Under the pieces are notes generated by a model. It was given only the letters and a program-made list of their open reading frames with translations. It made no database searches and had not been told where the DNA came from. Position numbers and translations under genes: made by a program. Source: Bacteroidota bacterium (GTDB lineage: Bacteria > Bacteroidota > Bacteroidia > Flavobacteriales_D > Crocinitomicaceae). From it: a stretch of 64,000 bases of DNA. Shown piece after piece: positions 15,926 to 18,997 of this stretch (within the stretch, counting starts at the first letter, position 1; each line of letters opens with the position of its first letter). The stretch spans positions 18,520 through 82,519 of the forward strand of contig JAJRQQ010000079.1 of assembly GCA_024280155.1 (NCBI GenBank), given 5' to 3'.

Positions 15926-17107
15926 TTATTGTTTCACCAACTTGTATGAATTCCCTTTGTATCGAATAATGTAAATTCCATCTGAATACTTACTCAAATC
16001 GATATGTTGTGATTGACTACTAAGTATAGTTTCTCCCATGAGATTCATTATTTTATATTCTTCCTCAAAAATTGTAGAAGTAAAAAATTGCCCATCGTTA
16101 GAAGGGTTCGGGTAGAATAAAATAAAATTAATATTGCTTTCATCTAAGCCAACTTGAGATAATTGAATGGTTAGTGTCTGCGTAGAATGAACGACTTGTG
16201 TGTTTAAATCAAAATATTCAACTTGCACTAGATAATTTGCATCCGTTCCCGTTTTAATCATTGTTCCATAACGCTCGCCAGGTAGAACTTCTACTGTGTC
16301 CCCAATTTGTTGTTGAGGCAAAGGTCTTCCGTCACTAGAAATTGTTCTTGCATTTAATGAACTTGGGAAAATATAACGTACACCGTAATAACCAATGTTA
16401 ACGAGTCTTGTATAAACATCTTCATTCGGTAAAGCGTAATTATAATTTGCAGGGTCTGCTAACTGAGAATCTGATTTACCATTGATGAGGAAGTATTGTG
16501 GAGCATAAACATCGGGTACAGCAACTGGTTGAGGGGTTGCTGCATCATACAGATGGTTTAAGACAGAGTTTTTATGCCAAAAAGTATCAATTTCAGAAGC
16601 ATTCCAAACAAAATCTCGACCGTATTGTTCACCACCAGCCCATGTTAAATAACTGTTCTCTTGAGGGTGAACGACAATGACTCCATACATACCCGCTTGA
16701 ACATGTAGTGTGGATACAACGTGACAATGGTAAATGTATGTTCCCGCATGAGGAGCTTTGAAACGATAGAAGCCATGTTCGGCATGGTTTACTTGGAATG
16801 ATAAACTCGGAACCCCATCATTTTCTTGATCAACATCCAACCCATGTAAATGAATTGTATGAGGGGCACCTTGTGACATATTCAAGAAATCAATGAGAAC
16901 ACTATCACCTTCGATCATGTGTAAAATGGGACCTGGTATTTCTATAATATCAGAAGTGTTGTTAGCAAATCCAAATATTCGCGGAAACGCACCATCATGT
17001 AGCAGAATATTACCAGTACTTCTTCCTACAATTAATTGAGTGTAATCAATTTGAGAAAAGCTCGAAATAGAATTGGCTATAATTATTAATATGAATATAA
17101 TTCTCAT
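15926..17107 (-). CDS. Multicopper oxidase/cupredoxin domain protein (type 1 Cu motif) with T9SS C-terminal domain
   Basis: HTIHLHGLD, YIYHCHVVSTLHVQAGM, C-terminal LFYPNPSNDGQFF...YSDGIYIIRYKG. Confidence 0.85.
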   Translation of the reverse strand: MRIIFILIIIANSISSFSQIDYTQLIVGRSTGNILLHDGAFPRIFGFANNTSDIIEIPGPILHMIEGDSVLIDFLNMSQGAPHTIHLHGLDVDQENDGVPSLSFQVNHAEHGFYRFKAPHAGTYIYHCHVVSTLHVQAGMYGVIVVHPQENSYLTWAGGEQYGRDFVWNASEIDTFWHKNSVLNHLYDAATPQPVAVPDVYAPQYFLINGKSDSQLADPANYNYALPNEDVYTRLVNIGYYGVRYIFPSSLNARTISSDGRPLPQQQIGDTVEVLPGERYGTMIKTGTDANYLVQVEYFDLNTQVVHSTQTLTIQLSQVGLDESNINFILFYPNPSNDGQFFTSTIFEEEYKIMNLMGETILSSQSQHIDLSKYSDGIYIIRYKGNSYKLVKQ

Positions 17108-17967
17108 GGTGCAATATTTAAAGTTAAAAACATTCCTGTTGCATAAACTTGTCCTGACGATACTGCAGCGAGATTGTGATCATGGACAGGGTATTCTCCT
17201 GGTTTATCAGGTGTGCAAGAAAGTACAAGGTATTCTGAAGGGTAAATTGGAAAAGTGTCTTTGGAACGACCAATGTTGATAGCCTTCTTTGAATCGTCTT
17301 CAATGGTTAAATGATAGCCGTGAAAATGCATGGAATGTATACTAAGACCATTGTTAAGAATAACGATTTTAAATTCTTGTCCCACATTCCCAACTGGGCG
17401 AGCTATTGGGTCACCATTTACGTTTGGATGACTTTTTCCATTCACAGTAAAGTAATCGGGTTCATAGTCTGTTAAAGTCGGTTGAGCAGAATTAGAGATG
17501 ATTTCAGCATTCCAAACTGAATCAATTTCACGTAAATCCCAATAGAAATAGGTTGAATTGTCTGTTAGTTCTTTGATGTGAATTAGTCCAGATAAACCCA
17601 CGTATTCATTGTAGGGTTGGTTAGAATTATCATAATATCTAAAAACTCCAGCCGTTGTCAGTTGAATGTTTTGCTCAATAGAATCACCTGCAGGTATGTT
17701 ACCGAAATCTATATATCCATCTATTTTAAAAGAATGGGCATCTGTGTCAAGGTTAACGACTTTTAAATTAACATCATCCCCTTTGCTCCAAATAAAAGTA
17801 TCACTATTTTCAGAAAATGAAGTTGACGTAGAAAAGGTTTTTGCTAAAACTTGAGTTCCATCCACAAGTGTTCTTGTTCCATTTTGTATGATTAAGCGTA
17901 CATCAATGGTTGCAGAAAAAGAGCTTGTTGCTTTCAATAGTACAAAAAATATAAAAAGTTTATTCAT
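17104..17967 (-). CDS. Cupredoxin/multicopper-oxidase-like secreted protein, translationally coupled to the next gene
   Basis: HSMHFHGYH and VHDHNLAAVSSGQVYATGM; ATGA overlap with 15926..17107. Confidence 0.8.
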   Translation of the reverse strand: MNKLFIFFVLLKATSSFSATIDVRLIIQNGTRTLVDGTQVLAKTFSTSTSFSENSDTFIWSKGDDVNLKVVNLDTDAHSFKIDGYIDFGNIPAGDSIEQNIQLTTAGVFRYYDNSNQPYNEYVGLSGLIHIKELTDNSTYFYWDLREIDSVWNAEIISNSAQPTLTDYEPDYFTVNGKSHPNVNGDPIARPVGNVGQEFKIVILNNGLSIHSMHFHGYHLTIEDDSKKAINIGRSKDTFPIYPSEYLVLSCTPDKPGEYPVHDHNLAAVSSGQVYATGMFLTLNIAP

Positions 17968-18046: not shown

Positions 18047-18997
18047 TTACAAAACCAAAATCTCCACTCGTCTATTCGCTTGTTCTTCGTAGGAGAATTT
18101 TGGATCAGGAAAGATAGGGTTCATATTTCCGTATCCTTTCGTAGTGAGGCGGTCTTTATTGATGCCATTTTCGACGAGGTATTTTTTTACTCGTTTTGCT
18201 CGTGCTTCTGATATCTTCTGTCCTGCGTTTGAATTGTCACCTCGAGCATCAACATGTCCTTGGATTTCAATTTTTAAATGAGAATTCAATAAAAGAAAAT
18301 CTCTCAATCTTTTTAATTTGGGTATTGAACTTTCTGTAATAATACTCGTTCCTGGTTTAAACTCAATGTCTTCAATACTGATACTGTGCCCACTTTCAAT
18401 TCGATTTAGGTAGATTACTACTTCTTGATTGTCAAAAGAAGTGGCTGAAAAGATAGTGTCAGTGAAGAAGTAACCTTCAATATCTGTTTTAATATTCAGT
18501 TTACATTTTCGCTCAATATTGAAATAAAGTTCAGAAGCACGATATGTACCATTGACTTGTCTAGACCCGTCAATGGTAATAGTCGCTAAAACCGGTTTTC
18601 TGTTTGCTTTATCCTTTACTACAATAGAGAATGTTGGGGCAAAATCGTCAAAACGTTTATCAATGATTTTTTCTTCCGTTTGGATAATAATATCAGGTTT
18701 GAAATGCCAGACTAAATTCATTTTGTGTTTTTTTCCTTTTGCAGTAGCAAAGAGGATATTTATTTTTTGTTCCTCTTTCAGCTTGATCGTGTATAAAAAA
18801 CCGCCCCCTGTTTTCTGATTAATTCCAATTGATTTTTTATCTTTTTTTATATAGAGTCGATTAATTTCGGCAACACCCGTTTTTATTTCAGAACAAATGT
18901 CTCTTTTTAATTGGTCAAAGACAACCATCTGAACGAAACCATCTTCTATGTTAGCAGTAAAAGTCAATTCACCATTTGATGGAGCGATAAACGACAC
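18047..18997 (-). CDS. OmpA-family protein (C-terminal OmpA domain); 5' end likely at 19219 with an in-frame TAA at 19199-19201
   Basis: KIEIQGHVDARGDNSNAGQKISEARAKRVKKYLVENGINKDRLTTKGYGNMNPI; in-frame upstream coding to 19219. Confidence 0.85.
   Translation of the reverse strand: MSFIAPSNGELTFTANIEDGFVQMVVFDQLKRDICSEIKTGVAEINRLYIKKDKKSIGINQKTGGGFLYTIKLKEEQKINILFATAKGKKHKMNLVWHFKPDIIIQTEEKIIDKRFDDFAPTFSIVVKDKANRKPVLATITIDGSRQVNGTYRASELYFNIERKCKLNIKTDIEGYFFTDTIFSATSFDNQEVVIYLNRIESGHSISIEDIEFKPGTSIITESSIPKLKRLRDFLLLNSHLKIEIQGHVDARGDNSNAGQKISEARAKRVKKYLVENGINKDRLTTKGYGNMNPIFPDPKFSYEEQANRRVEILVL

Follow-up and report, generated by a model that had tools for sequence, protein, structure and literature searches.

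Can a single multicopper oxidase be assembled from two genes, neither of which encodes the full set of its copper ligands? The question is raised by two overlapping genes, here called A and B, on the minus strand of contig JAJRQQ010000079.1 from a Bacteroidota bacterium of the family Crocinitomicaceae (assembly GCA_024280155.1), within a stretch of 64,000 nucleotides (contig positions 18,520 to 82,519) that was analyzed as a whole and is called the window below. Two-domain multicopper oxidases provide the natural frame of reference: they form trimers in which the trinuclear copper cluster is coordinated by residues of two protomers, in the type B enzyme studied, domain 1 of one monomer and domain 2 of its neighbour supply these residues, and the defining feature of type C is that domain 1 holds a type 1 copper (PMC13151041). 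The original prediction for this locus was that A and B form a heteromeric oxidase with its trinuclear site between two different subunits. Our analysis supports that model, through obligate pairing of the genes, an invariant four-plus-four division of the cluster ligands, kinship with type C enzymes, and a confident, ring-like structural model. We consider it highly probable that A and B are obligate subunits of one secreted multicopper oxidase with the trinuclear cluster at their interface, a reading in which copper binding, catalysis, and joint export are inferred.

Gene A (17104..17967, minus strand) encodes a predicted exported protein of 287 aa with two cupredoxin domains and half of the trinuclear-cluster ligands. 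Gene B (15926..17107, minus strand) encodes a protein of 393 aa, likewise predicted to be exported, in which two cupredoxin domains are joined to a type IX sorting domain; judged from the sequences of 94 distinct homologues, its contribution is the type 1 copper site and the second half of the cluster ligands. The stop codon of A and the start codon of B overlap in an ATGA (17104..17107, minus strand), from which translational coupling of the two genes may be inferred, and both proteins begin, as read by eye, with hydrophobic N-termini typical of Sec signal peptides. On re-reading, the open reading frames, their coordinates and motifs, the overlap, and a signal-peptide-like N-terminus on each protein were all as first described. 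The one exception concerns A, which had been said to contain no cysteine: it has a single one, C251, which lies off the copper positions and is unconserved (Cys in 6 of 94 homologues).

Each chain combines an intact half-site with a degenerate domain. In A, the half-site is domain 2 (17107..17457, minus strand; Pfam Cu-oxidase_2, E=3.1e-13), which bears the motifs H211-x-x-H214-x-H216 (HSMHFHG, residues 211-217; 17320..17337, minus strand) and H262-D-H264 (VHDHN, residues 261-265; 17176..17184, minus strand); H214, H216, H262, and H264 are present in all 94 distinct A homologues, and PF07731 was found in 23 of 23. Domain 1 of A (17563..17910, minus strand, limits approximate) is a degenerate cupredoxin that has lost the HxH and HCH positions, although its first histidine, H78, is kept in 84 of 94 homologues; position 113, where the ancestral Cys stood, is Asp in 81 of 94, and the protein has no type 1 site in either of its two domains. 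In B, the intact half-site is domain 1 (16658..16990, minus strand; Pfam Cu-oxidase_3, E=6.9e-17), where HTIHLHG (residues 83-89; 16844..16861, minus strand) provides H83 to the type 1 site and H86 and H88 to the trinuclear cluster, and YHCHVVSTLHVQAGM (residues 126-140; 16688..16729, minus strand) provides the type 3 ligands H127 and H129 together with C128, H135, and M140 of the type 1 site. Each of these residues is found in 94 of 94 homologues, and the type 1 set originally described as complete (H83, C128, H135, M140) is indeed so. Domain 2 of B (16160..16495, minus strand, limits approximate) is again a degenerate cupredoxin, from which all four trinuclear histidines are lost and in which no column rich in His or Cys occurs among the 94 distinct homologues. 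It is followed by a profile match to the type IX secretion C-terminal sorting domain (PF18962 / TIGR04183; 15929..16114, minus strand). With PF07732 and PF07731 both found in 22 of 22 homologues, and with a type 1 site in the first of two cupredoxin domains only, B has the layout of a type C enzyme.

The complementarity of these losses becomes clear on alignment with L026, a single-gene two-domain relative of 434 aa that carries all motifs. Measured against this reference, B retains every domain 1 ligand and none of domain 2, and A retains all trinuclear ligands of domain 2, its domain 1 set being gone except for H78. The eight trinuclear ligands are divided four and four over the two genes, and the type 1 site is complete on B, adjacent to the half of the cluster that B provides. 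None of the 12 ligand positions (eight trinuclear His and four of the type 1 site) varies among 94 distinct A and 94 distinct B sequences, whereas the equivalent positions in the degenerate domains, domain 1 of A and domain 2 of B, are scrambled or variable. All 94 pairs jointly possess the four HxH motifs and the type 1 Cys, and neither chain does so alone; the pair thus departs from type C, which would be recognized by all four motifs on one polypeptide, because two of them are found in A domain 2 and the other two in B domain 1. The partition proposed from the window alone, with no chain carrying all four motifs, extends in this way to all 94 pairs, and the pattern is far beyond chance. An additional histidine of A, H219 (HGYH), follows the HxxHxH motif; it is invariant in all A proteins, is replaced by Asp in L026, and is possibly a second-sphere or additional metal ligand.

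The same alignments bear on whether A and B share merely an operon rather than an active site, in which case B would be a NirK-like or type 1 copper protein acting on its own, with A as an independent copper-binding accessory protein or chaperone. B does match the copper nitrite reductase model TIGR02376 (E=5e-19) as well as many NirK structures, and copper-handling genes lie near A-B in some loci; the match to the model, however, is worth 68.7 bits where the curated cut-off stands at 296. NirK carries HxxDxH, with the catalytic Asp, in domain 1 and a type 2 His in domain 2, whereas B has HxxHxH in 94 of 94 homologues and a second domain without any conserved His that could be the NirK ligand. 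The motif and domain 2 together argue against both NirK and a plain type 1 copper protein as identities for B, and both were rejected. Nor would a purely chaperone-like A be expected to keep invariant exactly those four domain 2 ligands that B has lost, and we regard this account as very improbable.

A shared active site also accords with a strict pairing of the genes, which a synteny survey has borne out. Among 60 relatives surveyed first, no B homologue recovered as a locus lacked an A homologue immediately upstream. When GTDB species genomes were scanned with the B alignment, 80 loci emerged; independently, the A alignment identified 16 carriers among 395 Bacteroidia genomes, representing 12 of 197 genera and including the genome of the window. 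When merged, the two sets comprise about 95 non-redundant loci, all with A followed by B on the same strand and none with an orphan A or B; incomplete genes are confined to contig ends and a decayed pair. Spacing is tight: the genes overlap by 4 or 1 nt in 53 of 93 loci, and no more than 30 nt separate them in 87 of 93. Because the two-gene layout recurs in about 95 loci, a frame error or assembly artefact can be ruled out, as the original prediction had held. The family is common in Flavobacteriales, has a cultured carrier in Lishizhenia tianjinensis (locus L050), and was also seen in MAGs labelled Cytophagales, Saprospirales, and Sphingobacteriaceae; in a phylum-wide draw of 396 genomes, the genome of the window was the sole carrier, indicating that the family is sparse elsewhere in the phylum. 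The correlation of A and B distances (r=0.79) is expected from linkage alone.

Several individual loci deserve mention in their own right. In L027, on a contig of genome G049, stop codons interrupt A as well as B, an instance of joint pseudogenisation that speaks for a single functional unit. A 692-aa frame in L053/L119 (L053:4122-6200) appeared at first sight to be a natural A-B fusion and was discarded as fusion evidence because a frameshift in a G run produces it: A has its true C-terminus (..GVYPNGMFTTMLIR) in another frame, and the signal peptide of B is still there. The frameshift in L053 may be either a sequencing error or phase variation. In one further lineage (L107:2451-5732), a 1093-aa open frame begins with an unidentified N-terminal extension and ends in A.

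Where did such a pair come from? The family profiles of A and B align with an hhalign probability of 99.6% over 258 columns, so the two are paralogues along nearly their whole length, and in sequence-profile ranking against the PDB both families place type C two-domain laccases (2zwn / 3g5w) first. A full-length match to a single-gene family active on its own would have refuted the heteromeric model. Both chains do align full length with type C two-domain enzymes, yet each lacks half of the ligands, and the refuting case does not apply. The resemblance extends to the details: type C oxidases, such as the metagenome laccase 2zwn and the blue copper oxidase of Nitrosomonas europaea (3g5w), have the same two cupredoxin domains per chain, the type 1 site in domain 1, HxxHxH and HCH in domain 1, and HxH and HDH in domain 2. 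They differ in that the members known so far are homo-oligomers with the four motifs together on a single chain, whereas here the motifs are spread over two paralogous chains with one dead domain each. Most likely, a type C two-domain oxidase was duplicated and its copies, now A and B, then lost ligands in complementary fashion, a scenario that rests on profile similarity and not on a tree.

Structure prediction was facilitated by five loci in which A and B lie in the same frame, with one TAA between them. For one such lineage (L095), the stop codon was read as glycine to give a single A-B chain; this was a modelling device that implies no readthrough, and a linker was thereby imposed. A mixed alignment with equal A-only and B-only rows had put B onto A, and the input became block-correct once the row numbers were changed. 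The resulting AlphaFold2 model of 602 residues has a mean pLDDT of 90.8 and a pTM of 0.91, on which grounds the relative placement of A and B can be considered confident. High pTM is not automatic in such models, given that the two-domain neighbour protein C, predicted in the same manner, reached only 0.64 despite a pLDDT of 93.5. The best fold matches listed for the A-B model are ring-type oxidases and their kin, namely prothrombinase factor V, ceruloplasmin, factor VIII, and MnxG (TMq 0.57-0.67), and the prediction is one of a ceruloplasmin-like ring arrangement, a statement about a confident model that does not extend to His-His distances. Within the modelled ring, the contact between A domain 2 and B domain 1 corresponds to that between domains 2 and 3 of six-domain oxidases. 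One A-B pair fills two of the three ring positions; the stoichiometry is therefore unresolved, and alternating A and B cannot fill the ring evenly.

This geometry invites a different genealogy, in which A-B is a split and truncated relative of single-chain six-domain oxidases of the MnxG type and owes nothing to duplication of a two-domain enzyme. Bacterial six-domain oxidases have their trinuclear site between domains 2 and 3 (PMC3600357), as the four consecutive domains of A-B would have theirs between positions 2 and 3, and MnxG has the highest TMq (0.67) among the matches listed. Mnx is, moreover, also a multi-protein complex, of which MnxG is the multicopper-oxidase chain and whose partners MnxE/F bear no resemblance to any characterized protein (PMC5622069). 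In the six-domain family, however, the mononuclear site is reported in domain 2 (PMC3600357), and here it lies in B domain 1, the equivalent of domain 3, and in the sequence profiles type C laccases rank first and MnxG is absent among the matches listed. We judge a six-domain origin to be very unlikely. Ceruloplasmin, hephaestin, and factors V and VIII are also rings of cupredoxin pairs with at most one interface bearing a trinuclear site, but they are single chains of six domains in which the site, if present, lies between domains 1 and 6.

If A and B indeed constitute one oxidase of two-domain descent, its catalytic cycle can be sketched from the ligand positions. The type 1 copper in B domain 1 (H83, C128, H135, M140) would take single electrons from the substrate, and the Cys-His bridge in B, from C128 to H127 and H129, would pass them to the trinuclear cluster. 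This cluster would be held at the interface by H86, H88, H127, and H129 of B domain 1 and H214, H216, H262, and H264 of A domain 2, and would reduce O2 to water; neither A nor B could be expected to form it alone.

To our knowledge, a multicopper oxidase with an active centre built from two different proteins has not been described. The heterodimeric fungal laccases of the Pleurotus POXA3 type resemble A-B in consisting of two different polypeptides, but their small subunit is not known to contribute any copper ligand, all sites being on the large subunit. Among open-access publications on heteromeric, split, or heterotrimeric laccases, these fungal enzymes were the only precedent found. We conclude that A-B represents a novel, heteromeric form of two-domain multicopper oxidase, its two-subunit interpretation being well supported by computation. 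If this is correct, the pair would illustrate clearly how reciprocal degeneration can convert a homo-oligomeric redox enzyme into an obligate hetero-oligomer, and such a conversion is related to the route that has been proposed to lead from two-domain oxidases to rings of the ceruloplasmin kind. Two questions also become accessible to experiment: how two unlike chains jointly assemble a trinuclear cluster, and how a chain is exported without a type IX signal of its own.

The latter problem arises from a marked asymmetry that the original prediction did not mention, in that the type IX C-terminal sorting domain is found in 20 of 22 B homologues and in 0 of 23 A homologues. Since B has a type IX signal and A none, A is probably either exported in complex with B or periplasmic and joined by B there, on the assumption that the two proteins co-localize. 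The more specific proposition, taken as one joint claim, of a widespread oxidase family with a two-gene cluster whose A subunit crosses the outer membrane pre-assembled with B remains finely poised and, in our estimate, slightly more doubtful than not.

Neighbouring genes, a conserved cluster likewise absent from the original prediction, offer hints to function. A third gene for a secreted protein of about 230 aa lies upstream of A in 68 of 80 loci, mostly directly (e.g., L096:3398-4090, plus strand); its product has an Ig-like fold, an invariant CxxxxC, a type IX tail, and no assigned function, and a fold search with protein C returned only Ig-like beta-sandwich matches that reveal no function. 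An MbnH-family di-haem enzyme and an MbnP-family protein, some versions of the latter with a type IX tail, are encoded near A-B in about 25 of 80 loci (e.g., L032:6138-8117, minus strand, and L003-L005). MbnH/MbnP is a conserved pair for which a copper role is suggested yet unproven (PMC3621798), and CorA of methanotrophs, a surface Cu(I) protein (PMC3912023), is analogous; MbnH/MbnP and A-B possibly form a surface copper module. Because of these copper-related neighbours, Cu(I) is favoured as the substrate, and a Cu(I) or other metal oxidase is the likeliest function, albeit a tentative assignment inferred from gene context that may well prove wrong.

The same context could be taken to mean that A and B associate without reducing O2 and bind or store copper at the surface, as an inactive relative in the manner of factor V. 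MbnH/MbnP stand beside roughly a quarter of the loci, and degenerate domains are frequent in the superfamily (PMC3600357), but a storage protein would need neither a complete type 1 site nor a Cys-His bridge, and the 12 catalytic ligands, type 1 Cys and axial Met included, are invariant in 94 pairs. Such a role is barely credible beside that of an active heteromeric oxidase. Both the Ig-like gene and MbnH/MbnP are missing beside the pair in the window and are present beside its closest relatives (L003-L005). Elsewhere in the genome of the window, on contig C15 and unlinked to A-B, an MbnP/MbnH-like pair with lipoprotein-like N-termini is encoded (L132:5607-7417).
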